The notes under the pieces were generated by a model. That model searched no databases. It worked only from the letters and a program-made list of their open reading frames with translations, and was not told where the DNA came from. The position numbers were made by a program, and so were the translations under genes. DNA of 64,000 bases from Planctomycetaceae bacterium (GTDB lineage: Bacteria > Planctomycetota > Planctomycetia > Planctomycetales > Planctomycetaceae): assembly GCA_020426325.1 (NCBI GenBank), contig JAGQQG010000009.1, positions 1 through 64,000 of the forward strand, written 5' to 3'. Positions 42,385 to 63,303 of the stretch are shown here, in pieces (the first letter of the stretch is position 1; each line of letters opens with the position of its first letter).

Positions 42385-42571
42385 TCCACTCGATGATTCG
42401 GGAATGAAAGAGCCTTCACCGCTCCTTCCGCTCCACAGCTGGTTAGTCTGGGAGGCTGGGTAAGAATGGGGCATGCGGGTGGAATGTGCAGAATGATTGA
42501 GCTTGCAGGGGTGCCTGTGATTCCCTACAAGCTCGGCCGATTCTGTCTATGTTTTGGGGAATTCCGCAGCA

Positions 42572-44560: not shown

Positions 44561-45487
44561 ATGAAGAGAGCGGCAAGGATGTCGGTCATTCTGGAGATCA
44601 CAGGAAATTCGGCGACCCCGGAGCAATTTGTGCTTCGTGCGGGCGAGGTTGCGGTCGTCGGCCGGTCGCCCTGGGTTGATCTGTCGCTGCCGGAAATCAG
44701 TGACATCGCAGACGAACACTTCGAGGTGGATTGCCGCAGTACTTCGTGCCGGGTGAAGTCGATCGATGGTCCGCTCCTGCGGAATCAAGTCAAAATCGAC
44801 AGTGCCCTGCTTGAGGACGGAGACATCCTGCGGGCAGGGAGCGTGGAATTCCGAGTCCGACTTTTCGGGCTCACTCTCGCCAAGGGTCCCGGAGAAACGA
44901 TTCGTCAGCTCGATGCGGGATCGACTGCGGATAACGCGTTCAGGCAATGTCTCCTGCGAGCCGGACTTTCGGAAGACGCGCAGAGGTATGTTGAGAACGG
45001 TGCCTATGTGCAGACATTCGACACCCTGTCGACAGCCGGGCTGACCAAAGATGCGTGCCGCTTCGCGATCGCAGCGATGTCACCCGCTGAGGCCATCACT
45101 CTGTCCCTACAGGTCTTGGGAAGTGACTGTGGTCTGTCACCCGACGATCGTGTTCAACTGCTGGAATATGCTGCCGGAACGAACGGGACGCTGACCGCTG
45201 AAATGATCGACCAACGAATGCAGAAGCTCCCATCGAAGTGTCCGGACGCATGGATTTGGAAGTCGGCCCGCTGGTTGAAGGGAAGTCTCTCTCCCGCAGG
45301 AATGCCAGTCGTGCCGCCTGTTCCGGAATTGTTCGCTGTCGCGATGAGCGTCGCCCTTGCCTTGGCAGCAGCTCGGAGCGAAAGAGACGTCATGGGGCAA
45401 TGGATGCCTCTTGTCCGTGAGCGACTCTTGCAGAATGACACCGAAGTTCATCCAGAGACTGTTGTCACAACACGCGCATCAGCCTGA
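44561..45487 (+). CDS. FHA-domain protein with DUF6931-like C-terminus
   Basis: An FHA domain at about residues 20-105 (AVVGRSPWVDLSLP, then DEHFEVDCR in place of the usual SxxHaxi block) would bind phosphothreonine peptides, although the canonical Ser/His pair is partly altered. A helical region follows, with SPAEAITLSLQVLGSDCGL and PDDRVQLLEYAAG. The C-terminal WKSARWLKGSLSPAGMP with PVPPELF-like and ALALAAARS segments resembles DUF6931, a domain reported with T6SS and FHA. It starts 3 bp after vgrG. T6SS FHA proteins link Ser/Thr phosphorylation to assembly in other bacteria, so a control role is inferred; no kinase gene is in this block. Start at 44561 (alternative 44579). Confidence 0.72.
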   Translation: MKRAARMSVILEITGNSATPEQFVLRAGEVAVVGRSPWVDLSLPEISDIADEHFEVDCRSTSCRVKSIDGPLLRNQVKIDSALLEDGDILRAGSVEFRVRLFGLTLAKGPGETIRQLDAGSTADNAFRQCLLRAGLSEDAQRYVENGAYVQTFDTLSTAGLTKDACRFAIAAMSPAEAITLSLQVLGSDCGLSPDDRVQLLEYAAGTNGTLTAEMIDQRMQKLPSKCPDAWIWKSARWLKGSLSPAGMPVVPPVPELFAVAMSVALALAAARSERDVMGQWMPLVRERLLQNDTEVHPETVVTTRASA

Positions 45488-45525: not shown

Positions 45526-45816
45526 ATGCCGCCAGCCGCAAGAGTGGGAGATGATCACGAATGTACGGAAGTGACCGGGGTGGTGCCTCATGTGGGTGGT
45601 CCGATACTCGGTCCCGGTGCAGTCAATGTACTCCTTGAGGGGATGCCGGCTTCGATTGTGGGTGATGAGTGTGAGTGTGAAGGCCCGGTGGACATGACAG
45701 TTATGGGTTCAGCGACCGTCATGATCAGCAACAAGCCGTCCGTCCGTCAGGATGATGAGACAGAACACGGAGGCATGATTGTTGCCGGGGCACCAACAGT
45801 GTTGATCGGTGGTTGA
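45526..45816 (+). CDS. PAAR-domain spike-tip protein
   Basis: PAAR proteins form the sharp cone that caps the VgrG tip. The 96 residues show the PAAR signature in order: MPPAARVGDDHECT, VPHVGGPILGPGAVNVLLEGMPA, the Cys/His zinc ligands in DECECEGP and TEHGGMIVAG, and the closing APTVLIGG. There is no extended toxin domain. It is 39 bp after the FHA gene, and its stop overlaps the TTG alternative start of the giant protein gene. Confidence 0.93.
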   Translation: MPPAARVGDDHECTEVTGVVPHVGGPILGPGAVNVLLEGMPASIVGDECECEGPVDMTVMGSATVMISNKPSVRQDDETEHGGMIVAGAPTVLIGG

Positions 45817-45869
45817 CGGACTCGATCGGTTCACATGGGCTGGAGATTCGACGAAAGACTCGGTCACGG

Positions 45870-48800
45870 ATGACACAAGCCTGGCGATTACAGCAGAATT
45901 CATCCTGGCTTCGCACGACAGCGATGCTCATGGCAGCTGCGCTGTTCCTGTGTGGACTGGCGGCCTTTTTCGTCACGTTGATTCAACCGTTTGAAGCCCC
46001 GAGATTGATCCTGTTGACATGTGACGGCGACCCGGCCACCGCAGGGGCTTCCCCCTTTCAACAACTGGCAACCTCTCATCATCGAGGCCTCTCCTTTAAC
46101 GAAGTCACGACTCCTCCGGGGCCCGACTGGCTCCAAGCGATCGAGAACCTTGGCGACGACATTCTCTCCCGGGATGTCGTGATCGTGTCCTTGCGGGGAA
46201 ATTGGGTCGACACACCTGAAGGGGCTCTGTCGTACGACAACCGTCAGGCGCCTGGTGCCGCGCCCAAGCTGCTTTTGCTTGACGACATCCTTGAACAGCT
46301 GAACGATCTTCCCGCAACTACGGTTGTGCTTTGTCTGGATGACGCAGACCCGGACCTCGATCAGTTCTCAGAGCGTTTACAGGAGGCTCAGTCCAAAGCG
46401 GATGCAAACCGCGTGGTGATCGTGACCTCGCATCGCCTGGGTGAGGAATCGTTTCCACTACCGATGCGGCGGTGTACGGCGTTCGGCCACGTGATCTCTC
46501 GTGCACTCTGTTCAGTGGCCGACCGCAATCATGATTCTGTCATCTCGATGCAGGAGTTCCTGACCACGATCGAGAGAGATGTTCAAGGGTGGGCAGCAGA
46601 GCTGACGGGGGGACGCGAAAGCCAAACCCCTTTGGTCATCGCACCCTCTGGGCTGTCCTCAGAAGCGACGGTCTGCCAGGTGCTCAAGATCGGAGCAACT
46701 TCGGCCGTCAAAACCGGGGGCACAGCCAAAAATACAGATGACGGAGCTTCATCTGATCGAACAGCTGGCGTCGAGTTGAGTCGGGTGACCACAACTTGGG
46801 ACCTGGCGACCGAATTGACTGATCGTGCCCTTGCGGGAGATGTCCCGTTGGTCGTTTGTCGCGGGATGCATCGCGATCTTGTAGAGCTGGAACGTCGCTG
46901 GCGATTTGGCGAATCGACACCCGCTCTTCGGGATGCCTATGACGCAATGCAGGCAACGCTGGAAAGCCTGTCGAAAGATCACGGAGCCCCTGCGAATTCG
47001 CCGCTATGGGCCAGTCTTTTGGCAGACTTGCTGGAACCGGTGAGTGGTGGGAAGTCGGTGGACGCTGCCTCATCAAGTCCGGCTGACCGGGGTGCCAACA
47101 CGCAGGATTCTCCGAGTGCACAACCGACAGTGCGTTCACTGCCCGTCTGGACCGGTTCGTCACGGATGAGGTCTCGCGACTCGTCAAGAATGGACGACCT
47201 CCGTCAGCTTCAGGAGATGATCTCCAGCGAAAAATCCCGGGATGCCATCGTGAACTGGCTTGAACAGGAAAGCTCCGACTCGCAGTCTCGCACTGCTCAG
47301 CTTGCGAGAAAGCTGTCGGACTTGCCGAACATTCCAGACGACCTGTGGACCGACGTTCTTCTGGCACGTGTGATGTTGGAACTCAACACTCAGGACAAGA
47401 CTGCATCCTCCTGGTGTTACGACGAATGGACTCACGCTGAGCAAGCGGCCCTGCGATCGGAAAGATTGCTCCTCGATCAGGTGGAACATGACTGGATCGA
47501 GCGGGCGCAGCAGTCGAATGCAGCGACGATGGCGAGCCTCATGCGCGGGCATGAAGTCGATGCTCTTCACCGGTCTGCGTCGAAGTTGTGTCGCAACCTG
47601 CTGCTGATTCTTCCCGACCTGCTGGAGACCGATCGGCGGCTGCAATTCTGGGAGAATGATCCCGCTGAAGTGGGAGACGTGCTGAATGGAGTCCTGCAAT
47701 CGGTCGCAGAATTGCGTCGGACGCTGTGGGAGGACTCACTCCCGGACACAGGTCATGTTGCCGGGCTGGTGCGAGCTATCGAAGCAGACAGACGCCGGTT
47801 GGCAGAACCTGTGCATCAGCTGACGACCCGCGCAACAATGCCCTCGCTCACATCTCCTCCAGCGAGTGATCTGCTGCGAGCGTTACGATCCGAACTGCTG
47901 ACCACACAGGAGCGGGCCAGTCTGCTCGCTGTCTGGCAAGAGCTCGGCAACGATTTACCGGTCAACGCTCCACACCCAACTTCCGCCGGACGCGTGATCG
48001 TTCACGGACTCTCCGCCGGATTGAAACGTAACTTTCAGCGACGGGAATTCTACAATCATCTATTCAAACCGATCACAAACGACGATCAAGCCCGTGAGCA
48101 ACCGTCAGACGATGCGGACTTACTCGATTCCCTGTTGGCCTACCAACAAGCCGAAACCGCTTGGTGTCACCAGCGACCTGGAGAGATACGTCATCAACTC
48201 GAACAATCTCTGTCGATGCCTATCGATGCCGGGACATTGGCGAGAGCGCAAGTCCTCTGGGATGCATGTGACGGCCTGACGGACGAAGCACAACTCCCGC
48301 CTCAGTGGCCACAGCTGTCGGAACGCATCGAGCAGTGCAGAACCACGCAGCACCTGGACTGGCAGATTCAACGAGTGAATCTGGCGAGAAATGATGCGAG
48401 CGATTGGGAAGCGGATTGCTACGATGAGCGTGAGTCCGACCTCCGTGCTTCTCGACCAATTTTCAGAGCATGGCCCCCTCCGGAGTATGATTCCTCCACG
48501 CTATTGGGCGGCCCCTTGACGGCAATGCTGAGCAACAAGGGCCCGGTTGAACTTCGGTTTGTCGTTCACAACATGTCAAACCGAGATCAGGATTATGTGC
48601 TCACGATGCAATACCCGGTGGATGAGTATCTGATCGAATCTCAAGTCGATCGTGCCGTTCTGCCAGCGGATGCCCCTCCCTGGCCTTATGGATCAACCGG
48701 AACCCAGACCGGACTCCCATTGAGTGTGAAAGGACTCGCGTCACGGGATGTGACGCTGCGTGTTCAGCCCCGATCGGTGGACGCTCGACCGGCAACCCTG

Positions 48801-50684
48801 CTCATAAGGTTACGGGGGGAGCAGTCGACCGTCAGAGCCACCTGCGAACTCAATCCGCCGCGAAAGATTCCCATCGAACTTATCTTGGAAGATGAGTTCG
48901 GCCCGGTGATCGAGGACGACCGAGGCTTCACGGTTGAACCGTTTCCGAACCGAGTTGGCACGCTGCACTGGCTGCTTCAGAGCAACTCGGAAACCGTGCA
49001 GCATGTTCGATTCTCAGTCCATGTGCTGGACGCGGTGCCTCCGGAATTGCCGAGGGAAGCCATCCCTACTGCATCCCTGACCGATTTTCTGGGGACTCTG
49101 TCTCGTGAAACGCACTCCATCGAACTTCCGGTGATCGAGTTGAGGCCTCACGGACCTCCACAACCGGTCGTCTTTCCCAAGGAGGATGACACGAAAGCCC
49201 CACTTGCCATGATGGGCGGACTGGTGGTCGTTCTGTCGGATGAGTCAACAGGGTTGACGACACTGCGACAGGTACGAATGAGGCCGCAGCGTCCACTGCG
49301 GTTTGCTGTCCCGCAGATCGACTATGAACAGACGACAGGACGAATCAGTCTCCGTATTGATGCTAGAGACATTGAACGTCTTCCTCGCGAAGGGATCCCG
49401 GTCTCAGCGGCTCTGGCAAACGACTCTGATCGTCCACTGCCCGCACGGACGATCGGGACGCTGAGTCGCCAGTCTCCACGGGCCATACTGACACTGCTTG
49501 CGGAACCGGAGCAGGACCATCGCGTTCATGTCCATGTGGCCGGTTGGCCGCGAGCCTTTATCTTTGACATCATCGATGGCACCCCGACACCTCTCCGCGA
49601 ACCTCAACTCCGGATCACATCGCCGGAGGCCAATCGTGTCTATCAGACAATTAACGTCGTTCCTGTGAGTGTTCAGCTCGACTCAGCTCCCGTGGGACTT
49701 GTGTCAACGGGTGACTCCTGGTTCGAAGTGGGAGTCGATGCGGACCATGACCGCCGACTGACCGGCGAGGCCGCCGTGCGTATCGAGCAGGATCGGCACG
49801 TCACCGTCGCATGGCTCGGAGCTAACCCGAACGGAACAACACAGTTTCAGGTCGGGGTTCAGGACTTCGATCTGTTGCTGCCGACGAGTGGACTTCACAA
49901 TCAGCGTGCCGGTTTGCTGGGACGGATCGTACGAGAGGGACATCCCGATCTCTGGTCAGAGGCGGTCCCGATTGTGTTCGATACATCGGGTCCCAAGCTT
50001 GCCGATCTCGAACTCCTGCCGGGGCCGGTCGTGACCATTGGTGAATCGATCGTAGTCACGGCACGGGCTGACGATCAGGGCCTGAGCGGCGTCTCGGATG
50101 TGCAGCTTGCACTCGACCCAACGCGGGAAGGAGTCTTCGGACCGTCAATCAAACCGATCTCTTCAACCCCCCTGGAAGATGGGACGTGGCGAGCCGAGAT
50201 GCCGACGAAATCGCTTGAGCAGGGACAGCACCTGCTTCTGGTCCGAGGCGTCGATCAGGCAGGAAATGCCGAAGATCCCCATCCGCTCTGGCTGGAAGCC
50301 ATCACTCCGGAAGAGGCCGCTCGCAGGCAATCCGCACGCACAACAAGCTTCTCAGGACAGCTGTTCTATGGGACAGAGCCGGCATCCGGTTTCAAAGTCG
50401 AGTTGATCGCCAATGAAGCTGAATCATCTGCCCCAGAAAAACCGATAACACCGGAGAAGTCTGTTCAATCGAAAAAGTCTTTCAATGCGACATCTGGAAA
50501 GGATGGGAGGTTTGTCATTCAATCGGTGACCGGAGGAGTCTATTCGCTTCACATCTCCGGTGTCCTGCGAGGTGAGAAGATCGAACGGGATCGCACGGTG
50601 ACGATCGACGTCAACAACCCGCCCGCTGCTCTTGCTGAGCGACTGGACCGACCACTGAAGACTGCTTCGGCCGAAATGCCCTGA
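45870..50684 (+). CDS. Giant membrane-anchored protein A: pseudo-caspase domain and large beta-rich region (T6SS-linked)
   Basis: This protein of about 1,604 residues has one membrane segment (about 18-39, AMLMAAALFLCGLAAFFVTL), with basic residues before it, so most of the chain should be periplasmic. Residues 45-265 have caspase (C14) layout: a strand at DVVIVSLRGNW where the catalytic His loop would be, TTVVLCLDDADP in place of the LDxCHSG Cys motif, then VVIVTSHRLGEES, a helix-like SRALCSVA and the EF-like DRNHDSVISMQEFL. Neither catalytic residue is kept. Helices fill about 300-900, Ig-like beta segments about 900-1490, and a carboxypeptidase-regulatory-like domain (FSGQLFYGTEPASGF) ends the chain. 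ATG at 45870 is used; a TTG at 45813 overlaps the PAAR stop. The role is unknown; it is encoded within the T6SS block. Confidence 0.82.
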   Translation: MTQAWRLQQNSSWLRTTAMLMAAALFLCGLAAFFVTLIQPFEAPRLILLTCDGDPATAGASPFQQLATSHHRGLSFNEVTTPPGPDWLQAIENLGDDILSRDVVIVSLRGNWVDTPEGALSYDNRQAPGAAPKLLLLDDILEQLNDLPATTVVLCLDDADPDLDQFSERLQEAQSKADANRVVIVTSHRLGEESFPLPMRRCTAFGHVISRALCSVADRNHDSVISMQEFLTTIERDVQGWAAELTGGRESQTPLVIAPSGLSSEATVCQVLKIGATSAVKTGGTAKNTDDGASSDRTAGVELSRVTTTWDLATELTDRALAGDVPLVVCRGMHRDLVELERRWRFGESTPALRDAYDAMQATLESLSKDHGAPANSPLWASLLADLLEPVSGGKSVDAASSSPADRGANTQDSPSAQPTVRSLPVWTGSSRMRSRDSSRMDDLRQLQEMISSEKSRDAIVNWLEQESSDSQSRTAQLARKLSDLPNIPDDLWTDVLLARVMLELNTQDKTASSWCYDEWTHAEQAALRSERLLLDQVEHDWIERAQQSNAATMASLMRGHEVDALHRSASKLCRNLLLILPDLLETDRRLQFWENDPAEVGDVLNGVLQSVAELRRTLWEDSLPDTGHVAGLVRAIEADRRRLAEPVHQLTTRATMPSLTSPPASDLLRALRSELLTTQERASLLAVWQELGNDLPVNAPHPTSAGRVIVHGLSAGLKRNFQRREFYNHLFKPITNDDQAREQPSDDADLLDSLLAYQQAETAWCHQRPGEIRHQLEQSLSMPIDAGTLARAQVLWDACDGLTDEAQLPPQWPQLSERIEQCRTTQHLDWQIQRVNLARNDASDWEADCYDERESDLRASRPIFRAWPPPEYDSSTLLGGPLTAMLSNKGPVELRFVVHNMSNRDQDYVLTMQYPVDEYLIESQVDRAVLPADAPPWPYGSTGTQTGLPLSVKGLASRDVTLRVQPRSVDARPATLLIRLRGEQSTVRATCELNPPRKIPIELILEDEFGPVIEDDRGFTVEPFPNRVGTLHWLLQSNSETVQHVRFSVHVLDAVPPELPREAIPTASLTDFLGTLSRETHSIELPVIELRPHGPPQPVVFPKEDDTKAPLAMMGGLVVVLSDESTGLTTLRQVRMRPQRPLRFAVPQIDYEQTTGRISLRIDARDIERLPREGIPVSAALANDSDRPLPARTIGTLSRQSPRAILTLLAEPEQDHRVHVHVAGWPRAFIFDIIDGTPTPLREPQLRITSPEANRVYQTINVVPVSVQLDSAPVGLVSTGDSWFEVGVDADHDRRLTGEAAVRIEQDRHVTVAWLGANPNGTTQFQVGVQDFDLLLPTSGLHNQRAGLLGRIVREGHPDLWSEAVPIVFDTSGPKLADLELLPGPVVTIGESIVVTARADDQGLSGVSDVQLALDPTREGVFGPSIKPISSTPLEDGTWRAEMPTKSLEQGQHLLLVRGVDQAGNAEDPHPLWLEAITPEEAARRQSARTTSFSGQLFYGTEPASGFKVELIANEAESSAPEKPITPEKSVQSKKSFNATSGKDGRFVIQSVTGGVYSLHISGVLRGEKIERDRTVTIDVNNPPAALAERLDRPLKTASAEMP

Positions 50685-50736: not shown

Positions 50737-51549
50737 ATGTGCTCTTCCCATAAGGATGATCGCCGCGTGGAGAACGAGTCCTTACATTGGAGCTTCCCGC
50801 GACTGGCCTCACTGCTTCTGGTGGCCGTCACAGGCTGTGCTGCCACCTATGCCACCATTCCCGAAGGTCCGGGAGTGCCGGTGGTTCATCGTCCGATGAC
50901 GCTCTGGACCTTTCTCGGAGTTGATCAACTCATCGATCATCACTACGAGAGCCATGATCGTCTGATGGCGAGAATCGGGCAGCACTTCCCTGATTTGGAG
51001 CCCAAGCCGCCACTCGTGCTGAACACGTCGCCACAAGCAGCCGCCTCTCCCAGTGTGGCGGTCCATAATGCGGCCTTCGTCCTTTCTGCAGAACAACAGG
51101 CTCCACAGAAAATCAAGGCCATCAAAGCCGTCGCCAAGGTGGGAGCCGCTGCGTATCCGCAGGTCGAGGAGGCACTGCTGGCAGGGATGGATGATCGGAA
51201 TCCCGATGTGCGTCTCGCCAGTGTTGAGGCCGTGCTCAAGACGTCGGGCGATGGATGCGATCCCTGCGATCTCACCGGGAACTGTACGCCTGCGATCCGT
51301 CATCAACTCTGGCTGATGGGATATGGGGTCCACGATGACGGATGTCCGCTGGAACCCTCGCCGGCTGTCCGTCGGGTCGCACGTCTGGCACTCGGTGTGT
51401 GCGGCGGACCAATGCCCGTTGAATGTCCGCCTCCGCAATCGAATGAATTTCCGTCACAGGAAATCATCGAGGAGGTGCTGGGACCGTACGATCTGGCAGA
51501 ACCAACTCCGGCAGACGGGCCGTCTGCGGGGCCTGTCCTCCCGGAGTAA
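50737..51549 (+). CDS. HEAT-repeat-like lipoprotein (T6SS-linked)
   Basis: The N-terminus LASLLLVAVTGCAATY is a lipobox, with the lipidated Cys at about residue 34 after a rather long hydrophilic lead. A later start, such as GTG at 50767, is possible. The mature 235 residues hold helical repeats of HEAT type (QKIKAIKAVAKVGAAAYPQVEEALLAGM, NPDVRLASVEAVL, PAVRRVARLALG) and several cysteines (GCDPCDLTGNC). It follows giant protein A after 52 bp and its 3' end overlaps the convergent giant B gene by 86 bp. It does not resemble TssJ, which is a transthyretin-like beta-sandwich. A substitute outer-membrane anchor for the complex is a possible role. Confidence 0.78.
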   Translation: MCSSHKDDRRVENESLHWSFPRLASLLLVAVTGCAATYATIPEGPGVPVVHRPMTLWTFLGVDQLIDHHYESHDRLMARIGQHFPDLEPKPPLVLNTSPQAAASPSVAVHNAAFVLSAEQQAPQKIKAIKAVAKVGAAAYPQVEEALLAGMDDRNPDVRLASVEAVLKTSGDGCDPCDLTGNCTPAIRHQLWLMGYGVHDDGCPLEPSPAVRRVARLALGVCGGPMPVECPPPQSNEFPSQEIIEEVLGPYDLAEPTPADGPSAGPVLPE

Positions 51550-54500
51550 TGAGCCCCTCGTCGTTCAGAACGGGGACACGCAGCGGAGCAGGCATGACCC
51601 GTTGCGAGGCCGTGTCAGGCATAGACAGTTGGATCTTCACAGGGGCGTTTTCGTCTTCGGCCTGAGCGTAGATGAACGTGTGCACCTCGATCTGGGCGTC
51701 GGGGTCGAGACGCCGACGGACTTTCTTGAGTGCGGGACCCGACATCCATGTGACGGCCAATTCACCCAAACCCGGCGATGTCGGTTGATGTCGGAGGATG
51801 CATTGAACGAAGTTCGCGGTCTGTCTCAGCTCCCATTGCACTCCCGGCGCCAATATGGAATCTCCCTTGGACGTCGAAGGCAACGATAAGGTTTCAACAG
51901 TGGTAGCCACCGCGTCGATCGCGCTGAGCCTCACATTTGCCTGGGGTGCGTCGACAGGCCACTGGTCTGTCGTGATTTGCATCACAGGGACAGGTGTTCT
52001 CGAAACGAACTCATCCCCTTGATAGATGAACGGCACTCCCAACTCTGCGCCCGACTGATCGAGCGGCTGAACCGTGATCTGATAGAGTTCGGGCCGAGCC
52101 AGATAGAGGCGATTTGCCTGTTTGATCGAAAATGTGAAGACTGCATCAGTGCCCGAACGTTGGTGCTGGTGTACTCCAACGAGCCAAGGGACCTTCTCAG
52201 AGTTGGTAGCATTCAAAGCAACGAATTGGCTTCGAGTTGATGTGTATTCCGCAGAGGGGAGTAGACCGGTGGAATCTCTCACATCATCGCCGAGCAGGTC
52301 CACAGCCTCTCCGCCGTTCAATTGGATGGCTGCGTTCGAATTCTCATAGGTCAGGCTGACGCTTGCCGGCAACCGATCGGTCCATGTTACGGGGGCGTTC
52401 ACAGGCGACTCATGCGATTTTCCGTCCGATCCGGTCCAAGTGAATGAAGCAGGTCCGACAAGGGAACGAAGCTTCTGAATCAACTGAGAAGCACGGCTGA
52501 CGTCCAGTTGCGATGTGCCTCCGGTCTGACTGGCGAGCGTGCCCAACTCATCACCAGCTGCCTGTTGATCCTTCGCCGACATTCCAAAGCCAATGACGTG
52601 GACAATCGCACCGGAGTCGTGAGCCTTGGCCAATGCCCCTGCGAACTCGACCCGTTGGTCCGGCGGGGGGTTGAACTGGTAGTTCCGTCCGTCGGTAATG
52701 ACTACGATGTGCCGCTGAACATCAGTCGGCAGTCCATCGAATCCAGCAGCGGCCTGTGAGACAGCCATGTACAATGGGGTTTCCCCCCACGGCAACAGGT
52801 CATCAAGTCGAGCGCTCACCTGGCCCAATTCCGGTGGACCAAACCGCCCGGGAGGCAGAATCGTCTCAACGTCGTGATAGGGCTGAAGACCATCGGGAAC
52901 AGCGAAAGTGTCAGCATAGCGCTTCTGGATAATCACCTTCTGCGACTTTGGATCATGCGTCGCACGGTGACCATAGAGCATGACTCCCACGCTGGCGTCT
53001 GTCTGGTCGGTCATCTCTTCGAGCAGACGCTTCAGGGAGGAGATTGCAGCAGTCAATTTTGTGGTCTTGCCCTGTTCTCCCTCACGAGGCACCTCTTCCT
53101 GCATGGAAGCGGAACAGTCGAGAATGAAAGTCATCGCCGCTCCTTTCATTTGTCGGCTGCTGACCGTGAATGTCGTCTCGGCTGCCGGATCGACCTCGAA
53201 CTCGCTGACGCGTCCACCTGCAGGGATGATGCGGAAATTGCTGCGATATTTGTTGCCACGAAACCACAGTTCTGCGAACAACGGCTGACTGACATCCTCA
53301 AAGCTGTTCGCAACGAGCTGAGCATTCAGGGGGAGATCGTTTTCGATGGTGGACATTTCCAACAGGTCATTCAGCGTGATGGAAGCTGCGCGACCGGGAA
53401 AGGCATCTTCCAGATGTTGAATTCCCACACGAGCCATGCCGTCCGGGAGTCCATTAACGTTTCCATTTGCGCGGACGCTGATGTGCGTACTGAGTTCGTC
53501 CGAGGGCGACACCGGGGTCAGGCTGGCCGCATCCAAGCTCAAGCCGGACTCCGCTGCGGCGATGCTGTCGGACAGTTGTTGGCGGAGACTGGTGATTTCC
53601 TGCTGACGTTCATCGGTGATCCCGGCGACGACTGTGAGCAGTCGATTGACCTGCTGGGACATCAGGATTTGATTCGTCTCCGGCAACGTGCCCCAGAACT
53701 CTCGCAGCGATCCTTCAGCAAGCCAAAGCAGCAGATCACTCCACGCGAGCCTGCGGTATTCCCTGGCCCAGTCGTTGTTCGAGGTCCTCGTGAGGCCTAT
53801 GACGCGACGGCTGCTCAGCAACTGATTGCCTGTTCCATCGTTCAGAGATTTCGCACTGGTTGGGGCGGAGTCGGACTTCTCCGCTTCGCTCAGACGACGG
53901 CAGAACTGTGCATTCAGACATTCCCAACGGGATTCACCTTGCGAGAATCCGGTTGCATGTTGAGGAGGTCCCGTCAAGACGAGCGCGGGATGAGCATCCC
54001 AGGAGCTCAACATCCGAGCCACCGACTGGCTGGGTTTGCGATTCACTGAAGCTTGCGGTTGTTGCGTACGAGCTGCAACGAGTTTCTGAAGAAGGACGAT
54101 TCGCTGTTCGGCAGGCGGGCGGCTTTCCTCGTCGTCAGTCCGACTGAGCAATGGGACCTGCAGAAGTCGTTCGAGCGCGTCTAGATCATCTGCCTGGAGA
54201 TGCCTGAGCGTGAGCAAGCGTGTCCATTCCTCATCAAACCGCGAGCGGAGTTCATTCCAGCCACGCTCCACAGCAAGAGGAGTGACCGGAGTGCTGTCCA
54301 GCTGTGGTGTTGGTGGATGCAATCGCGCGTCAAGGTCATTGATGCCGTTGAGGAGTGGCAGTAAGACCTGATTGACGAGCTGATCCTTCTGGTCCGAGGT
54401 ATTGGCATCGTGGACCGTTGCCCATTCAGCCAGAAACGGCAACTCCAGACGGATCCGGTCGCAGAGGGCCAGCTGTTGATGGAGTGTTGTTGATTCAGAG

Positions 54501-56176
54501 AGACAATGCTGCAACGAGGATTCACCCTGTGCCAGTGTGTGATTGATGTCCTCCAGTTGAGACGTCGCCCCGACTTGCAAGGCGTCGAATGCTTCCAGGT
54601 GATGCTTTCGAGGCACGTCCAGTGCTGCGATCAATTGGCGGCTGACACGAATATCCTCCGGAACGGCGATGTTTTCGAAGCGGGCGCGTTGTGACAGGAC
54701 TTTCTGAATCAGGTCCGGATGCTGCCAGCTGTCAGGCGGTGCGGCTTCCGCAAGCAGTGATGCCATTGCAGCAAGAGACGTCTGAGCCAGCAGTTCATTT
54801 TCACCCGTCGTGCGGCTTTGCTGGGTCAATGAGTCCCGATCAGCGGCCAGCAGCATCTCATCCTGTAAGGTTTGAGCCGAGTGAATCTGATCGGTCTCGA
54901 TTCCTGTTTGCTGCTGAAGCTTGAGCAGTGGATAAGCACCGACAGGCAGCGGATTCGCATCGGCTTGTCTTTGAAGATAACTGAGCCACCGAGTCACTTC
55001 GCGACCGGTCGTCATCGATTCCGCAGCTCCCGCCCGCCCGGACCACAGGTGACTCTCCCAGGATGCCAACGCACGAAGGAGCCGTCCGGCGGCCGGAAGA
55101 TCCTTTCTCCAGACATCCGTATGCAACAAATGATCGCATTGCCGCCAGGCATCGAGAAGTTCTGAATCTGCAATTTCGGGTTCCGCGGACGGAGCGGTCG
55201 ACAGCAGGTCGTCTCGTTGTGCGGTGGGAAGCGCATGAACCAGGCAACTCGTGGACTTCCCCAACTCGAAGACCTCGACAGGGTCCGACTCGGGAAGGGT
55301 TTTCTTCAGAAAGGAAATCAATTCTGTATTGGTAATGTTCCCATCAGACGCCTGGAGATCATCCGCTTCTCCGGCGAGGCCGTGCCACAATGCATCCTGA
55401 AGGACCGATCCGCGTCGTCCCCATGATCGCCAGCGGGTCTCCCCATCACCCGAACGACAATATACGGTGAATCTGGCGTACCTCTTCATGACATCCGGCT
55501 GCACCAACCACGCATCAACAGCTTCTGGAAAACCGTTGTACAGCCATCCGCTATCCCAGTCGGTGCGAGTCGGGAGGCAGTCAAGGACGAGTTGGGTGTG
55601 TTGACTCTCAGGTGCCATCTCCTCGATCTGCTTGCAGAAATCTGCGAGCAAGATCCAGGTGCCGGAATCGAACGGATTCGCGAACGGAGGGATCAGTGCG
55701 GGTTGGCCGTCCGGAGTGACCGCCCCCACTCCCCGAACATCAACGATCAAAACCTCTCCACGTTTGATCTGCGGATGCAGCGTGCGGATTGCCGTTTCCA
55801 GCTGATCCCAGGGACTGCTGGTCAAGCCGTCACCAAACCCGGCATTCTCGACTTGCAGAGTTAGACCATCCAGAAGGCCAAAGCGATCGCCGTCCTCATC
55901 GATCCAACTGGGAGAAGCAAAGGGGGTCGGATAAGAGTCTGCAAAGTAAACAAAAGCCGTGCGAGCGGGAACTTCCTGGACAAGCCACAGCCAACCTGAA
56001 GCCGCAAACAGAAAAGCAATGAGCGACAGGATCAGTCCGACTCCCGCTCCCCTCGTCACTCGGGGTGGTGGAGTAAGTTGGACAGAGGTCAGTCGATGCT
56101 TCGTGGGGGGCTGTCGTTGCAGAGACGCAACAGATCCCGGCACAGCGTCGGTCTGTGGTGCAGCAACAACCTCCAT
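51464..56176 (-). CDS. Giant membrane-anchored protein B: pseudo-caspase plus vWA domain (T6SS-linked)
   Basis: This protein of 1,570 residues mirrors giant A. Its ATG has AAAGG six bases upstream. A membrane segment lies at about 45-68 (GLILSLIAFLFAASGWLWL) after a basic tail, so the long C-terminal part should be periplasmic. Residues 70-320 show a caspase-like layout: VLIVDVRGVGAV where the catalytic His loop would be, TQLVLDCLPTRTD at the Cys position and the terminal SDGNITNTELISFL helix. The catalytic residues are not in place. A long helical part (330-880) leads to a von Willebrand A domain with an intact MIDAS site (FILDCSASMQ, Asp near 1020; VITDGRNYQF), then beta-rich segments to the end. 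vWA domains bind partner proteins through metal. Function is unknown. Confidence 0.83.
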   Translation of the reverse strand: MEVVAAPQTDAVPGSVASLQRQPPTKHRLTSVQLTPPPRVTRGAGVGLILSLIAFLFAASGWLWLVQEVPARTAFVYFADSYPTPFASPSWIDEDGDRFGLLDGLTLQVENAGFGDGLTSSPWDQLETAIRTLHPQIKRGEVLIVDVRGVGAVTPDGQPALIPPFANPFDSGTWILLADFCKQIEEMAPESQHTQLVLDCLPTRTDWDSGWLYNGFPEAVDAWLVQPDVMKRYARFTVYCRSGDGETRWRSWGRRGSVLQDALWHGLAGEADDLQASDGNITNTELISFLKKTLPESDPVEVFELGKSTSCLVHALPTAQRDDLLSTAPSAEPEIADSELLDAWRQCDHLLHTDVWRKDLPAAGRLLRALASWESHLWSGRAGAAESMTTGREVTRWLSYLQRQADANPLPVGAYPLLKLQQQTGIETDQIHSAQTLQDEMLLAADRDSLTQQSRTTGENELLAQTSLAAMASLLAEAAPPDSWQHPDLIQKVLSQRARFENIAVPEDIRVSRQLIAALDVPRKHHLEAFDALQVGATSQLEDINHTLAQGESSLQHCLSESTTLHQQLALCDRIRLELPFLAEWATVHDANTSDQKDQLVNQVLLPLLNGINDLDARLHPPTPQLDSTPVTPLAVERGWNELRSRFDEEWTRLLTLRHLQADDLDALERLLQVPLLSRTDDEESRPPAEQRIVLLQKLVAARTQQPQASVNRKPSQSVARMLSSWDAHPALVLTGPPQHATGFSQGESRWECLNAQFCRRLSEAEKSDSAPTSAKSLNDGTGNQLLSSRRVIGLTRTSNNDWAREYRRLAWSDLLLWLAEGSLREFWGTLPETNQILMSQQVNRLLTVVAGITDERQQEITSLRQQLSDSIAAAESGLSLDAASLTPVSPSDELSTHISVRANGNVNGLPDGMARVGIQHLEDAFPGRAASITLNDLLEMSTIENDLPLNAQLVANSFEDVSQPLFAELWFRGNKYRSNFRIIPAGGRVSEFEVDPAAETTFTVSSRQMKGAAMTFILDCSASMQEEVPREGEQGKTTKLTAAISSLKRLLEEMTDQTDASVGVMLYGHRATHDPKSQKVIIQKRYADTFAVPDGLQPYHDVETILPPGRFGPPELGQVSARLDDLLPWGETPLYMAVSQAAAGFDGLPTDVQRHIVVITDGRNYQFNPPPDQRVEFAGALAKAHDSGAIVHVIGFGMSAKDQQAAGDELGTLASQTGGTSQLDVSRASQLIQKLRSLVGPASFTWTGSDGKSHESPVNAPVTWTDRLPASVSLTYENSNAAIQLNGGEAVDLLGDDVRDSTGLLPSAEYTSTRSQFVALNATNSEKVPWLVGVHQHQRSGTDAVFTFSIKQANRLYLARPELYQITVQPLDQSGAELGVPFIYQGDEFVSRTPVPVMQITTDQWPVDAPQANVRLSAIDAVATTVETLSLPSTSKGDSILAPGVQWELRQTANFVQCILRHQPTSPGLGELAVTWMSGPALKKVRRRLDPDAQIEVHTFIYAQAEDENAPVKIQLSMPDTASQRVMPAPLRVPVLNDEGLITPGGQAPQTARLPELVLPDRTVPAPPR

Positions 56177-56462: not shown

Positions 56463-57959
56463 TCAAAAGTTCCAACGGGCTTCCAGAAGAATGCGTCCCG
56501 TGTACCAGCCTGCATCACCTGCAGTCACTCCGCCGCTGATCCCCAGTTCAGGGAGACCCAAATCCCCTTCAGGCCCAAGCACGAAACGGAGTCCGGGGAG
56601 GAACTCAATGGCTGTTTCTCCATCGACATCGGCTGTGCCACCCGTTGCGGTCGTCCGTTGACCATCCAGGAACGACGTCCCCACGATCTCGAAGGTCGGG
56701 AGGACGGCAAATGCATCGTTCTCGTACCAGATCTTGCTCAGACCGATTCCCCAGATGAGGACTTCACCCGCATAGTTTGCTGTGCCTGATATGGGGATGA
56801 CATATCTCAGCTGGCTGTGGATGTAAGTTTCGTCGGACCAGCGATATCGCACCAGCAGGCCCGGTTCGATAGAGACGTGTCCGCTCCCTAACCCGCGACC
56901 GGCTGGACCGGTGTTGACGTACGTCAGAGTTTGTTGTGTGACAACCCAGTCCCGGCCGTCAACAATGACCACTTTCCCACCCGTGACGAGGTCGCCGATT
57001 CCAACCGTGTTCTTGTTGATCTCAGGATTGATTGAGCGCATGGGGACTTCGATGATGGCAGAGGCACGGTCGGTCGCCGTCTCCATGCGGGCTCTGAGCG
57101 TCATGACATCCACAGACGATTCCACTCCGCGTCCCTTGGGAGGGGCTGCCCAGAAATACTCGGATCGATCCGGTTTTGAGATGCCCCAACCTTGATCATA
57201 TTGCAAGGCAATGTGTGTGAATGGTTTTGCGGAGTTGATGAAAAAAGGAGCGTACATCACACGTTCATGACCGATGCCATAGTCGCTGCAAGGGGGGATG
57301 TACGCTGCAGGAAACAACCGCTCCAACGGACCACATGGTTCTGAGCTTGGAGGACACGCGTAGCCTGTCCGGGCAGCGCGTCGCATGTTGATCCGCTCAC
57401 GCACATGGCCAGCTTCCAGAACGGATGCTGGCAGCTCGGATTCATCAAAGACGGCAGCGTTGAGGATGTCGGGGCTCGTCGATTCTCCCGAGTCATCATT
57501 CAATTCATGGTCTGCTGCTTCCGACTCCCATCGCATTTGGGGTTGAAACAAAGCATCCACATCAGCCAACGAACTCTCGATCACACTGTCGTCCGTTGAG
57601 TTCAAGGACCACTCCCGAAGGCCATCTGATTCAAGTGACGAATCTGGTGGGCCATGAACCGTCTGAGGAGTTTCGTCCGACGGGTCCTTGGCGGTCTTTC
57701 GAGCGGATCGGGACTCAAGGGATGAGAACTCTGACGTACGATCCGTGACCGTGTCCAGTTGATCCTCGAGAGAGGTGTCAGCTGCGTCCGGCTGGGTGCT
57801 TGCATCAAATCCCGGTGGACGTGGGTCGCTGGTCCGAATCGGGAGTGCATCTTGGAACGCACGTCGCAGAGGCAGAGCCGAAGGCCACTCGGCAGCAGTC
57901 AACAAACTGCTCCAGAGTACAAATGCACACGCCAGGATGAACGAGCGGGTCTGGCACAT
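56463..57959 (-). CDS. Probable outer-membrane beta-barrel protein (T6SS-linked)
   Basis: A signal peptide (TRSFILACAFVLWSSLLTAA) is followed by about 150 residues of acidic, low-complexity sequence, a Cys-containing segment (YACPPSSEPCGP), and a region of alternating aromatic and hydrophilic residues. That region fits amphipathic strands (HIALQYDQGWGISK, VSIEPGLLVRYRW, YIHSQLRYVIPIS, GRILLEARWNF). The C-terminal Phe after RWN is the outer-membrane insertion signal of beta-barrels. The start at 57959 was chosen for the signal peptide; a 58025 start adds 22 basic residues. It is divergent from tssK and follows giant B on the - strand. I do not recognise a named family. Confidence 0.72.
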   Translation of the reverse strand: MCQTRSFILACAFVLWSSLLTAAEWPSALPLRRAFQDALPIRTSDPRPPGFDASTQPDAADTSLEDQLDTVTDRTSEFSSLESRSARKTAKDPSDETPQTVHGPPDSSLESDGLREWSLNSTDDSVIESSLADVDALFQPQMRWESEAADHELNDDSGESTSPDILNAAVFDESELPASVLEAGHVRERINMRRAARTGYACPPSSEPCGPLERLFPAAYIPPCSDYGIGHERVMYAPFFINSAKPFTHIALQYDQGWGISKPDRSEYFWAAPPKGRGVESSVDVMTLRARMETATDRASAIIEVPMRSINPEINKNTVGIGDLVTGGKVVIVDGRDWVVTQQTLTYVNTGPAGRGLGSGHVSIEPGLLVRYRWSDETYIHSQLRYVIPISGTANYAGEVLIWGIGLSKIWYENDAFAVLPTFEIVGTSFLDGQRTTATGGTADVDGETAIEFLPGLRFVLGPEGDLGLPELGISGGVTAGDAGWYTGRILLEARWNF

Positions 57960-58190
57960 GCGCTCACAGGATTTCAGCGAGGAAATGCTTCGGAATGTGA
58001 ACGATCTCGAGGTCGGTCGGCGCAAACATCACCGAGAATACAGATGTTATCGGTTGTTCCGGTCAATTCGCTCAAGACGATTCGTTGGTTGAGTCGATTT
58101 CGGATGATAAGGAGCGTCTCCCCTTGATGTCGCTCAAAGTCCGTGTCCTGCAAAGCTCCCGAACCTTTCCCAGCCCCAATCACAGTCTCC

Positions 58191-59606
58191 ATGCGGCACC
58201 TCCCCGTTCACTGGTACGAAGGGCTTTTCCTCCGTCCGCATCATTTCCAGGCCCATGAGAGGCACTGGCAGGAAGCGCTATTTGCCTCGGTCAGTTGGGA
58301 CCATCCCCACTACTGGGGCATTCTGGAGATGGACCTCAGCCGGGATGCCCTGGCCGCCGGACAGCTGGAAGTTCGCACACTTCGCGCCCGGATGCGTGAT
58401 GGAACTCTGGTTGACCGAAGCGATGGGAACCCATTAGATCGCGTTGACCTGAAATCTGCCTTTGACGTGGCCTCGACCGTGACGGCCTATCTGGCCGTGC
58501 CACGACTGCATCTCGGTGAACAGAACGTTGGTAACAATGGAGCCGGTAGCCATCGCTTTCGAGAGAACAGGATGCTTCTGCAGGATGAAGCTAATGGGGG
58601 GAATGACCAGGAAGTCTCCTTCCGAGAACTGGATGTTCAAATTCGGCTGTCGACGGACGAACTGAGCGGGTTCGAAACACTCCCCATCGGCCGATTCCGC
58701 CGAACGGGCGAAAGTTCGGGAGCGACGGAACTTCTGTTGGACTACATTCCCCCCACAATTACCCTGCGGAGCTGGGCTCCGCTGGGAGAACTCTATCGGG
58801 ACATCTGCGACATCATCACACGCAAGCGAGATGTGCTTGCGTCACAAGTGGCAGCCGGGGGAATGGGTTTCGATATGCATGCCCCGGATGACGTCCAGCG
58901 TGTGTTGATGTTCATCACACTGAACCAGTTGCTGGGCGGGCTCCAGGCGTATGCAACGACTCGACACGTCCATCCGTTTGTTGCCTACACCGAACTCTGT
59001 CGAGCTGTCGGTGCACTGGATGCGTTTGACCGGAGTCGTATCGGAGAGTCCGTCCCCGCTTACGATCATGATGATCTGGGCACCGTCTTTCGGACATTGC
59101 GATCGAGAATCGAAAATGCAATTCGATCGGTGCAGGATCATCCCTACTATCAACGATACTTCCAGGGAGTCAGCTCGCGGATGCAGGTGACTCTTGAACC
59201 TGAGTGGTTCCATTCTGACTGGCAGTGGTTCGTGGGAGTCCGCAAGGGAGACCTTTCCGACACGGAGCTTCAGGACCTGCTCTCGCCGGGCAAACTCGAC
59301 TGGAAGCTGGGCAGTGCCCGTCAGGTCGAGATGCTGTTTACTCAGCGACTTCCGGGGCTCCAACTGCGACCGGTGGGTCATAAGTTGCCCGTTCTCCCGC
59401 CGCAACGGGACTGGATGTATCTGGAAGTCCCGAGGACCGATAGCCCGGCTTGGCGCGATGTTCAGGATTCCCAAACTCTCGCGATCCGTTTTCGCGACAG
59501 CCTGATCCTCAATCGTGATCGGCTGCAAGGTGAACGCCGAATCCTCGTGGACGATCAGGGAGACCCGGTTTCGCTGGAAATGGCATTGTTCGCAGTTCCC
59601 AGTTAA
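58191..59606 (+). CDS. tssK: T6SS baseplate protein TssK
   Basis: TssK links the baseplate wedges to the membrane complex. The N-terminus PVHWYEGLFLRPHHFQAHER is the TssK hallmark, followed by WDHPHYWGILEMDLS. The mid-region (LEYIPPTI-like, DYIPPTITLRSWAPLGELYRDI) and the C-terminal segment GLQLRPVGHKLPVLP are also typical. About 471 residues fits. ATG at 58191 is chosen; frame-internal upstream ATG at 58143 adds 16 residues with no family match. Its TAA overlaps the next ATG by one base (TAATG), so tssL is coupled. Confidence 0.95.
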   Translation: MRHLPVHWYEGLFLRPHHFQAHERHWQEALFASVSWDHPHYWGILEMDLSRDALAAGQLEVRTLRARMRDGTLVDRSDGNPLDRVDLKSAFDVASTVTAYLAVPRLHLGEQNVGNNGAGSHRFRENRMLLQDEANGGNDQEVSFRELDVQIRLSTDELSGFETLPIGRFRRTGESSGATELLLDYIPPTITLRSWAPLGELYRDICDIITRKRDVLASQVAAGGMGFDMHAPDDVQRVLMFITLNQLLGGLQAYATTRHVHPFVAYTELCRAVGALDAFDRSRIGESVPAYDHDDLGTVFRTLRSRIENAIRSVQDHPYYQRYFQGVSSRMQVTLEPEWFHSDWQWFVGVRKGDLSDTELQDLLSPGKLDWKLGSARQVEMLFTQRLPGLQLRPVGHKLPVLPPQRDWMYLEVPRTDSPAWRDVQDSQTLAIRFRDSLILNRDRLQGERRILVDDQGDPVSLEMALFAVPS

Positions 59607-60274
59607 TGAAACGACATGTTTCAACAGGTACATCGATGTCTCTCGATCTCGCCCAGTCTGTTGACCCCGTGTTCACCCATGTGCTCGATCTTCTTGAACA
59701 GATCGAAGCCGGTGAGGATCTCGATCCGCGTCGTGTGCAGATGCAAATCCGCGACCTGATTGAACAGGCAGATGCATCGGTTGGCGCAACACAAAGCTGG
59801 GAACTGGCTCGGTATGCAATCACTGCCTGGATCGATGAGGTCCTGCTCGATGCCGCCTGGTCCGGACACGAATGGTGGAGCAATAACGTCCTTGAAGTCG
59901 AACTGTTCCGCACCCGTGATTGCAGCGAGCAGTTCTATGTGAAGGCAGAGTTGGCACGGAGTCTCCCGAACTCGCAGGTACTTGAAGTCTTTTATGATTG
60001 TGTCGTCCTGGGATTTCGAGGGATATACCGTTCGGCAGAGATCGCGCAAGTGATCGGTCGTAATGATGGATTGTCGGAATCGCTGGAGGCCTGGCTGAGA
60101 CGAACGTCGCTGGCCATCGAGAAGAAGTCTCAGATCACTCCTCGGGTGGTCGGCCTTCCAAGCGGTGCTCCCCCAAGAACAGCACGCCGCTGGTTTGTCG
60201 GCACGGGATTTCTCTTGCTGGCTCTGGTAGTGATTGATGTGCTGATCTACCAACTGCGAGGTACATCCTCATGA
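59606..60274 (+). CDS. tssL: T6SS membrane protein TssL (DotU/IcmH)
   Basis: TssL is the inner-membrane anchor that binds TssK and TssM. The cytoplasmic DotU domain (WELARYAITAWIDEVLLDAAW, EVELFRTRDCSEQFYVKAE, FYDCVVLGFRGIY) covers residues 10-170 and one C-terminal helix (FLLLALVVIDVLIYQL) anchors it. It ends eight residues after the membrane helix, without a peptidoglycan-binding OmpA domain. At 222 residues it is the simple type. The start ATG overlaps the tssK stop; an internal ATG at 59636 (MSLDLAQS) is an alternative. Confidence 0.93.
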   Translation: MKRHVSTGTSMSLDLAQSVDPVFTHVLDLLEQIEAGEDLDPRRVQMQIRDLIEQADASVGATQSWELARYAITAWIDEVLLDAAWSGHEWWSNNVLEVELFRTRDCSEQFYVKAELARSLPNSQVLEVFYDCVVLGFRGIYRSAEIAQVIGRNDGLSESLEAWLRRTSLAIEKKSQITPRVVGLPSGAPPRTARRWFVGTGFLLLALVVIDVLIYQLRGTSS

Positions 60275-60394
60275 GTCGAATGAATTCCTTTCGCTTGCGG
60301 TTTGGCAGAAATCTCTCCCTCCTTTTTCCGAGATGATTCAGCCTCAGCACGGCATCCAGTAATCAGCATCGGATTCACTGAGAGACAGACGATC

Positions 60395-61969
60395 ATGTTC
60401 GACAAAATGTCAGAGCGAGCTGCGAACCTTCGCGTTGCGCTTGCAGGCGTCTCTGCCGCTGCATGGATCGCGCTGGCCACGTTCTCTGGGCTGTTGATGC
60501 TGACGGGCTTAGCTTGGTTGCTTGCGTGGAACAATCCCGTCTGGGTCCCCTGGGGGACGTACCTCACTCTGACTCGGGGCCTCTCCCTGTTGGGCATGGC
60601 CATTCTGGCTTGTGCTGCAGAGTATCTGTTGTTTCGCATCTGGTTTGACGAAACCCCGATCCCTGATCGCGAGCTTCGAGCCGGCTGGACCGCAGGTCTG
60701 CGTCATCTCGCACGCGAAGGGATTCGGCTGCAATCGCTCCCCTGCTTTATGCTGCTTGATCCGACCGATGCCTGTGAAAGCTGGTTCGATGCAGCCGGGA
60801 TCCGAGTTCAGCGACCAGAAGCATCAGACTCTCCGGTGCGGTGGTATGTCGCGGAGGAATCACTGTTCCTTGTCGTCCAGAAGCTGGGATGTCTCGAACC
60901 ATTGACGAAAGAACTGAACGAAGCCCGTCGCAGGCCATACCGGTATGCGATGCAGACATACGCTCATCAGACAGTCCCGCAACCTTCACTCGTCACAGCA
61001 ACTGCAGACAATAATCTTGCGACTTCCTTGGAGCTGGACGATCCGCAAGGACGGAAATCTGCGGACTCCGGATTCGGGTCGATTGACGTCCATGCTGTCC
61101 GTGAGGCTCTTCAAAATCCTCAGTCCAATACGATTCTGAACGATTCATTGGCGCTCGATCAGGTCGATGACACTTACACACCGGGCATGGCGGACATTCA
61201 CATCTCATCGACAGAGATCGCTCGTCAGTCACGCCGACTGGCGGACGTCTGTCGACGCTTGACCGCCTGTCGCCGTCCGGTTGTCCCTGTCAACGGAATC
61301 GGCGTGCTGCTGCCTGATGGTCTTCTGTCAGCCTTCACTGGGACTGGGGCTCGCCTGGGTCAGGCGCTTAGACATGACCTCGATCTGCTGCAGCAGGAAC
61401 TGGGGGTGATTGCCCCAGTGTCCGTGATCGTGGTCGGTGCCGAGGAAGATGCCGGCATGATTGAGTTGATCCGACGTTCTGGTCGAGATCAGTCCAAGGG
61501 GCGTCGTCTGGGATGGGGAATCGGCCCCAGTCGAGCCACTCAGGAACGCGTCGCGGAATTCTGCGAAGAGGTGATGCGCGCTCTGAGGTCAACTGTGGGA
61601 CGCCGATTGAGAGATCCGTTGAGTGTGGGACGTCCGGGGGCATATCGTTTGTTTCGATTGATGAGCAGTCTGAGGGGTGATCGCAGCGAGGAACTCCAGG
61701 CTCTGATCACACACGGGTTCGCGAGTGAAGGGACCAGGGAACCCGATCTGCTGGCCGAAGTCTCCATTGCGGCTACTGGAGTTCAACCGACGGAACGTGC
61801 ATTCGCGGGATCGACGTATCGGCAGCTCATCGAGAATCAGGAGTTCGTCGAATGGACTGTCGCCTCACGAAGACGTGAACGACAGTACCGCTGGCTGGCT
61901 GCCATCTGCGGGGGGCTCTCGATCATGGCGGCCCTCGTCCTCGTTGCTCTGCTATTCGGCGATGTCTGA
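60395..61969 (+). CDS. tssM: Short TssM-like protein lacking P-loop and periplasmic domain
   Basis: TssM normally has two N-terminal membrane helices, a cytoplasmic GTPase-like domain, a third helix and a periplasmic arm of about 600 residues that reaches the outer membrane. Here 524 residues have helices at about 22-45 and 62-83, then a degenerate segment LPCFMLLDPTDACESWFDAA where canonical TssM has GxxGxGKT. The family block ADVCRRLTACRRPVVPVNGI lies near 290-305. A final helix (AAICGGLSIMAALVLVALLF) lies at 500-521, and the chain stops three residues later. The whole periplasmic arm is absent, and the following 240 bp cannot encode it. This is not a frameshift but a shortened form. It probably still binds TssK and TssL. 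Confidence 0.85.
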   Translation: MFDKMSERAANLRVALAGVSAAAWIALATFSGLLMLTGLAWLLAWNNPVWVPWGTYLTLTRGLSLLGMAILACAAEYLLFRIWFDETPIPDRELRAGWTAGLRHLAREGIRLQSLPCFMLLDPTDACESWFDAAGIRVQRPEASDSPVRWYVAEESLFLVVQKLGCLEPLTKELNEARRRPYRYAMQTYAHQTVPQPSLVTATADNNLATSLELDDPQGRKSADSGFGSIDVHAVREALQNPQSNTILNDSLALDQVDDTYTPGMADIHISSTEIARQSRRLADVCRRLTACRRPVVPVNGIGVLLPDGLLSAFTGTGARLGQALRHDLDLLQQELGVIAPVSVIVVGAEEDAGMIELIRRSGRDQSKGRRLGWGIGPSRATQERVAEFCEEVMRALRSTVGRRLRDPLSVGRPGAYRLFRLMSSLRGDRSEELQALITHGFASEGTREPDLLAEVSIAATGVQPTERAFAGSTYRQLIENQEFVEWTVASRRRERQYRWLAAICGGLSIMAALVLVALLFGDV

Positions 61970-62208
61970 CAGAGTGGATCCGGACTGAATCAATTGTCGT
62001 CCGTTTCGATCGTCGGACGACTCGAACAGTGAAACTTCCATGGCGATGAGGCACTCACCGTCAGCACGGTCGTGCAGGTCGTTTCGGTTCTGTCACCTGC
62101 CGCAACGAGGTTGGTGAGAACCGGCAATTCATGCCGATGCTCTTGAAACCATGCAAATCGACGGGGCACCGTCCGTTTGGTCATGGACGAGCACTTCGGA
62201 CATCACTG

Positions 62209-63261: not shown

Positions 63262-63293
63262 TCCTCTTTGCCAGTTGACGGCCCTTCCAAAGC

Positions 63294-63298
63294 GAGGT
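63294..63298 (+). promoter_or_regulatory. Shine-Dalgarno site deciding the tssB TTG start
   Basis: GAGGT lies five bases before TTG at 63304. The upstream TTG at 63268 has no such site. Confidence 0.6.
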
Positions 63299-63303
63299 GT
63301 ACC

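Follow-up and report, generated by a model that had tools for sequence, protein, structure and literature searches.

Two giant, membrane-anchored proteins with a degenerate caspase fold as probable substitutes for the TssM periplasmic domain in a planctomycete T6SS

Two described T6SS membrane complexes come closest to the one considered here. Like the TssJ-TssL-TssM complex of T6SS-i, the planctomycete set has TssL, a homologous cytoplasmic part of TssM, and a lipoprotein and large, anchored, predicted periplasmic proteins encoded in the locus, but it differs in being without the TssM periplasmic domain and the TssJ family and in having instead two giant proteins, A and B, that have no sequence homology to TssM. 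In the Bacteroidota T6SS-iii, TssNQOPR is used instead of TssJLM, with a vWA domain in TssR and PKD (Ig-like) domains in TssP (PMC10781749). The likeness is that of a lineage-specific complex with a vWA domain (in B, as in TssR) and Ig-like domains (in A, as in TssP), whereas planctomycetes differ in retaining TssL and a short TssM and in building giants of ~1,600 aa with a seemingly dead caspase domain. A Pfam scan of A and B to E 10 listed no TssN, TssQ, TssO, TssP or TssR family, and such families may be absent from Pfam. Two reports place knowledge of T6SS genes in Rhodopirellula baltica as far back as 2009 (PMC2660368, PMC5394234), and a literature search, with coverage that leaves aside preprints and most subscription papers, found no account of the two giants.

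The window, by which we mean the whole stretch of DNA that was analysed, comprises the first 64,000 nucleotides of contig JAGQQG010000009.1 from a member of the Planctomycetaceae. Its relevant features are as follows.

42554-44557, plus strand: VgrG (TssI), by Pfam
44561-45487, plus strand: FHA-DUF6931 protein adjoining A, by Pfam and recurrence in loci
45813-50684, plus strand: giant A, 1,623 aa, with anchor, predicted dead caspase-like domain, helices and Ig-like C-terminal part, by Pfam, profile comparison and hydropathy
50737-51549, plus strand: HEAT-repeat protein encoded between A and B, putatively a lipoprotein by its lipobox-like VTGC and a candidate for anchoring in the outer membrane
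51464-56176, minus strand: giant B, 1,570 aa, an open frame with relatives in all T6SS-bearing genomes sampled in the class
51527-52450, minus strand: B residues ~1243-1550, C-terminal beta-rich region, by model
52451-53149, minus strand: B residues ~1010-1242, vWA domain, by Pfam and fold comparison
53105-53119, minus strand: B residues 1020-1024, MIDAS core DCSAS, by site conservation among relatives
53150-53545, minus strand: B residues ~878-1009, beta-rich linker, by model
53546-55225, minus strand: B residues ~318-877, long helical region, common with A to about residue 709, by predicted secondary structure and profile comparison
55226-55978, minus strand: B residues 67-317, caspase fold, predicted to be without catalysis as V150 and L201 take the places of His and Cys, by model, fold comparison and dyad columns
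55979-56035, minus strand: B residues 48-66, lone N-terminal membrane anchor, inside-positive, by hydropathy scan
56463-58025, minus strand: protein without a Pfam family, putatively secreted or in the outer membrane, whose place next to B is conserved
58143-59606, plus strand: TssK
59606-60274, plus strand: TssL (DotU), by Pfam
60302-61969, plus strand: truncated TssM, 555 aa, without periplasmic domain, by Pfam and membrane-helix scan
62131-63261, plus strand: TssA, by Pfam
63268-63825, plus strand: TssB, by position and by profile matches in other loci

The genes for sheath, tube, baseplate and spike are all present (TssB, C, Hcp, E, F, G, K, VgrG and A, with TssB assigned by position and profile), and Pfam recognizes the DotU and IcmF-N families. 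The order is VgrG, TssK, TssL, TssM and TssA, then TssC, Hcp, TssE, TssF and TssG, with TssC following TssB directly beyond the window end. Right after tssG, at the end of the tss operon, lies a gene for a 441-aa protein with no Pfam family (L047:5597-6922, minus strand). Many planctomycete T6SS loci also carry two TssC genes in tandem, ~1.6 kb apart (G073:C16, G026:C50, G045:C1, G063:C1 and others), which perhaps indicates a sheath of two subunit kinds.

At 555 residues, the TssM of the window shows a match to the IcmF-related N-terminal family alone and ends 3 residues past its last membrane helix. Fetched stretches from 44 TssC-positive genomes of the class show a whole TssM in 26 and only a cut one in 1; the whole proteins measure 478-596 aa, and in 22 of the 26 genomes no more than 25 residues lie between a clear last membrane helix and the end of the protein. 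Among 99 relatives (from the window's own genome, its family and its class; 41 TssC-positive, 58 TssC-negative), computation demonstrates that neither periplasmic family of TssM (PF06744, PF06761) nor the TssJ family (PF12790) occurs in a single genome, each search giving a positive E. coli control. The wider phylum sample holds 392 genomes, 85 of them TssC-positive; PF06744 is found in 12, all TssC-positive and none in the class. Stretches were read from 20 of the 69 TssC-positive genomes of other classes, where tssM was whole in 12, cut in 2 and outside the stretch in 6, and all 12 whole genes are long (1,146-1,606 aa). None of these 12 long-TssM genomes is among the B matches. The preliminary description had proposed comparing the occurrence of the giants with TssM length, and the comparison came out as anticipated there, with short TssM accompanied by giants and long TssM without them. 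We consider this complementarity the strongest argument that one has replaced the other.

The replacement does not appear to have arisen by simple fission of TssM. The cytoplasmic part of the short TssM aligns with full-length TssM at E 6e-13 (hhalign), whereas neither giant shows sequence homology to full-length TssM in the same comparison (best E 0.3 with B and 0.08 with A). The idea that B is the homologous outer half of a split TssM was rejected for want of any profile similarity, and the role of the giants must therefore be argued from absence, position and co-occurrence.

Giant B is encoded by 1,570 open codons starting with ATG. A hydropathy scan finds exactly one membrane-helix-like stretch in 31 of 33 B relatives; in B itself this stretch (residues 48-66) is preceded by five K/R and two D/E residues, so that the N-terminus is predicted to be cytoplasmic and the remainder periplasmic. 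AlphaFold models residues 36-880 with mean pLDDT 82 and pTM 0.80 from 33 aligned sequences, and a second model, of residues 860-1550, reaches pLDDT 87 and pTM 0.68. Pfam recognizes the vWA part alone. The ORF, hydropathy, models, Pfam and neighbouring genes together bear out the preliminary description of B as a giant of the T6SS locus with an anchor, a caspase-like layout lacking His and Cys, an extended helical region and a vWA domain whose DCSAS site is intact, and the evidence for its two recognizable folds is considered in turn below.

Fold comparison covered the caspase and vWA parts of B, and the families reported are those among the matches listed. The alpha/beta domain (model residues 33-282) matches caspases with Z 16.6 and 3.2 A rmsd over 204 aligned residues (VIA-align), and every one of the 50 matches listed is to a caspase or MALT1. 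For the caspase-like domain, the probability in plain Foldseek is 1.00, but the E is only ~1e-3. The catalytic dyad was assessed in an alignment of 33 B relatives, 11 A relatives and 9 caspase-like proteins pulled by the B profile from the same or related genomes. V150 and L201 of B occupy the columns that hold H and C in all nine planctomycete caspase-like proteins. The catalytic His is kept by 20 of the 33 B relatives and by 2 of the 11 A relatives, the catalytic Cys by 2 of 33 and 0 of 11, and the two residues occur together in none of the 44 (0/33 B, 0/11 A). Judged by these residues, the caspase domain of B is predicted to be dead. The planctomycete caspase-like proteins of the peptidase C14 type have the fold and the motifs GLxGxAD..VsLxEL and QxP in common with the giants, which differ from them in that the catalytic pair is never complete and in being membrane anchored and fused to helices and vWA. 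The window's genome also encodes caspase-like proteins with both His and Cys intact (L193 and L194, at G000:C81 and G000:C142), and some of its intact proteins apparently continue, by eye, into a formylglycine-enzyme-like part.

The vWA domain of B is recognized by Pfam at E 6e-7, and its model has a fold match with Z 22.0, in which 181 residues align at 1.8 A. All 17 relatives compared have the MIDAS residues D1020, S1022, T1133 and D1162, and S1024 is invariant in the 8 sequences of a closer alignment, a pattern by which B has a complete predicted metal site. It is plausible that this MIDAS grips a partner in the periplasm, as had been suggested. A link of B to TssR was also considered and rejected, the Bacteroidota pattern-search matches being, by length and by eye from their sequences, generic 460-aa secreted vWA proteins.

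Giant A has the same plan as B and ends in Ig-like domains whose Pfam scores fall just under or well under the cut-offs. Profiles built from clean sets of 13 B and 11 A sequences align B 56-709 with A 46-718 at E 1.9e-30, over ~650 residues; iterated profiles in which A and B were mixed were left out of the homology claim. All 11 A sequences are found by the B profile (full-sequence E 8.5e-31 to 1.2e-7), and phmmer placed no A relative among the B matches and no B relative among the A matches. From this computed homology, B is a diverged paralogue of A over ~650 residues. In a maximum-likelihood tree of 43 N-terminal parts, 11 B sequences of the window's clade (support 99/98) stand apart from 12 A sequences (89/93), which makes the A/B split older than those genera and speaks for an early duplication in the branch of the family that includes the window. 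The whole tree, with several long branches and with A/B labels of its far rows assigned by the analyst, does not resolve A and B into one clade each, requiring 4 changes against a shuffled mean of 14.6. The suggestion that the two arose by duplication and divergence therefore stands as regards their shared plan and an old duplication in the window's clade, but not as two clean clades throughout.

The preliminary description had further asked whether the giants co-occur in other genomes, and computation finds that members of the A/B family accompany T6SS closely. Neither of the two outcomes it had named as contrary, unrelated N-terminal domains of A and B and a lack of co-occurrence, was thus obtained. 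A search with the single B sequence matches 21 of the 41 TssC-positive relatives and none of the 58 TssC-negative ones; the A sequence matches 11 genomes, 10 of which also match B, the other being G039 (78% complete, no TssC match), where an A-like fragment lies at a contig end. With the B profile, every one of the 41 TssC-positive genomes gives a match, and the frames concerned are 1,156 aa or longer. A cut-off of E 1e-25, set after the list was seen, keeps 40 of 41 TssC-positive and 0 of 58 TssC-negative genomes; these genomes are related, so Fisher values are only a rough guide. The one miss, G097, has a locus that matches a wider profile at E 5e-58. Weaker matches in TssC-negative genomes involve mainly the caspase-like part, and among the matches listed those in G033, G067, G089 and G093 are short, in frames of 1,157-1,302 aa. 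A 1,576-aa match in TssC-negative G077 was rejected as a giant, its caspase being intact (SGHG, DACR). In G001, of the same genus as the window, A, B and TssC all go without a match at E 1e-5, and in G063 two T6SS loci (G063:C1, near 3.08 Mb and 4.27 Mb) both carry giants of the A/B family.

The wider samples agree. Within the phylum sample, B is found in all 16 TssC-positive genomes of the class (12 of which are also among the 99); outside the class it is present in G383 (83% complete, no TssC match), and the other matches there involve the vWA region only. A pattern scan of 84,980 species returned 43 loci, with long matches in planctomycetes (strains of Rhodopirellula, Stieleria and Aporhodopirellula among them) and, beyond planctomycetes, in two records, whose labels are Deltaproteobacteria and simply bacterium.

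Gene order, likewise established by computation, ties the giants to tssM itself. Directly downstream of the short tssM and in its orientation, B is encoded in 12 genomes: nine have gaps between -4 and 143 bases, and in three the frames overlap further because starts were taken at the first possible codon. Six of these 12 show the order A-tssM-B, and in G026 the upstream giant is cut by the stretch end. Both giants are visible in the fetched loci of 22 genomes, where the A and B labels are rough, resting on a simple vWA pattern. The window's genus has another layout: FHA, A and the lipoprotein on the plus strand, B and the putative outer-membrane protein on the minus strand, and then tssK, tssL, tssM, tssA, tssB and tssC, with B encoded on the strand opposite to the tss operon.

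Several neighbours of the giants recur as well. The HEAT-repeat gene converges on B, the last 86 bases of the two overlapping; its relatives adjoin A or B in many planctomycete T6SS loci, a simple lipobox pattern being present in only about half of those listed, and its product is a candidate TssJ stand-in. The gene at 56463-58025 encodes a 520-aa secreted protein with a terminal phenylalanine, perhaps an outer-membrane barrel, and its relatives adjoin B in several loci. The FHA-DUF6931 gene beside A recurs in these loci and possibly provides a phospho-regulatory arm.

We believe that A and B are likely to be periplasmic subunits of the planctomycete T6SS membrane complex, standing in for the TssM periplasmic domain. 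Slightly more guardedly, we also think it probable that this is a further type of T6SS membrane complex, to date observed in this planctomycete class, in which TssM is cut at the periplasmic boundary and its outer half is replaced by a duplicated, anchored pseudo-caspase pair, with B contributing a metal-dependent vWA grip and A an Ig-like part. The part list of this complex is well supported, and from it we infer its topology, assembly, binding partners, MIDAS ligand and the structural role of the giants. TssL and the TssM that stops at its last membrane helix would form a platform in the inner membrane and cytoplasm on which the TssK baseplate docks. Through one N-terminal helix each, A and B would place ~1,500 residues apiece in the periplasm, where together they might build the cage or channel that the TssM periplasmic domain forms elsewhere. 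The non-cutting caspase fold could serve as a scaffold or dimerization module; caspase folds pair readily, a property that would fit two paralogous partners. Through its vWA domain, B would bind a partner, most likely the Ig-like tail of A, the HEAT lipoprotein or another B, with its MIDAS contacting an acidic residue of that partner, perhaps in A or the lipoprotein.

It seems appropriate to ask whether other roles would explain the same observations. The giants might serve the T6SS as a module for sensing and gating in the periplasm rather than as load-bearing parts of its membrane complex, a role for which the TagQR-to-PpkA/Fha arm of the T6SS threonine phosphorylation pathway would be the model. 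The FHA-DUF6931 gene beside A in the window and many other loci would fit a regulatory module, as would a lipoprotein encoded between A and B, and this reading gains from the weakest point of the replacement reading, namely that the giants have no sequence tie to the TssM periplasmic domain. Other points that count against replacement are that B lies opposite to the tss operon in the window and that G383, with B, and G039, with an A-like fragment, are without a TssC match. Nonetheless we judge it unlikely, since a sensing module should be dispensable in some systems, whereas giants accompany every one of the 41 TssC-positive relatives, and since it offers no account of why TssJ and the TssM periplasmic domain are missing. 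The same fixed membership in T6SS loci, coupled with the repeated adjacency to tssM and the joint absence of A, B and TssC from same-genus G001, makes it very improbable that A and B are unrelated passengers, even though gene order differs among genera.

Two further readings take their cue from the domains. The giants might travel with the T6SS as adhesins or contact proteins of the cell surface, attaching to the target cell by their vWA and Ig-like parts, the membrane complex being built from other, unseen proteins. The vWA pilus adhesins PitA and SpaC are among the Foldseek matches, and exposure of the TssR vWA domain is a matter of speculation in PMC10781749, but an N-terminal membrane anchor in 31 of 33 relatives and the tight linkage of the giants to tssM render this improbable. 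Alternatively, the N-terminal domain might be enzymatically active, as a caspase-like protease with T6SS parts or effectors as its substrates. The caspase fold and the His kept by many B relatives are what such an enzyme would offer; against this, the complete pair seen in all nine aligned active paralogues is met in none of the A and B sequences, and we give the proposal almost no credence.

If the giants do substitute for the TssM periplasmic domain, they would constitute a second independent invention, after the Bacteroidota TssNQOPR, of a periplasmic T6SS cage with vWA and Ig-like modules. How a T6SS crosses the envelope without that domain is a question raised by the Bacteroidota work, and here a single phylum offers a clean contrast between the two arrangements. 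The analysis names parts to purify and would give a dead caspase fold a use in a secretion machine. It also suggests that annotation relying on TssJ and a full TssM can misjudge the T6SS of planctomycetes.
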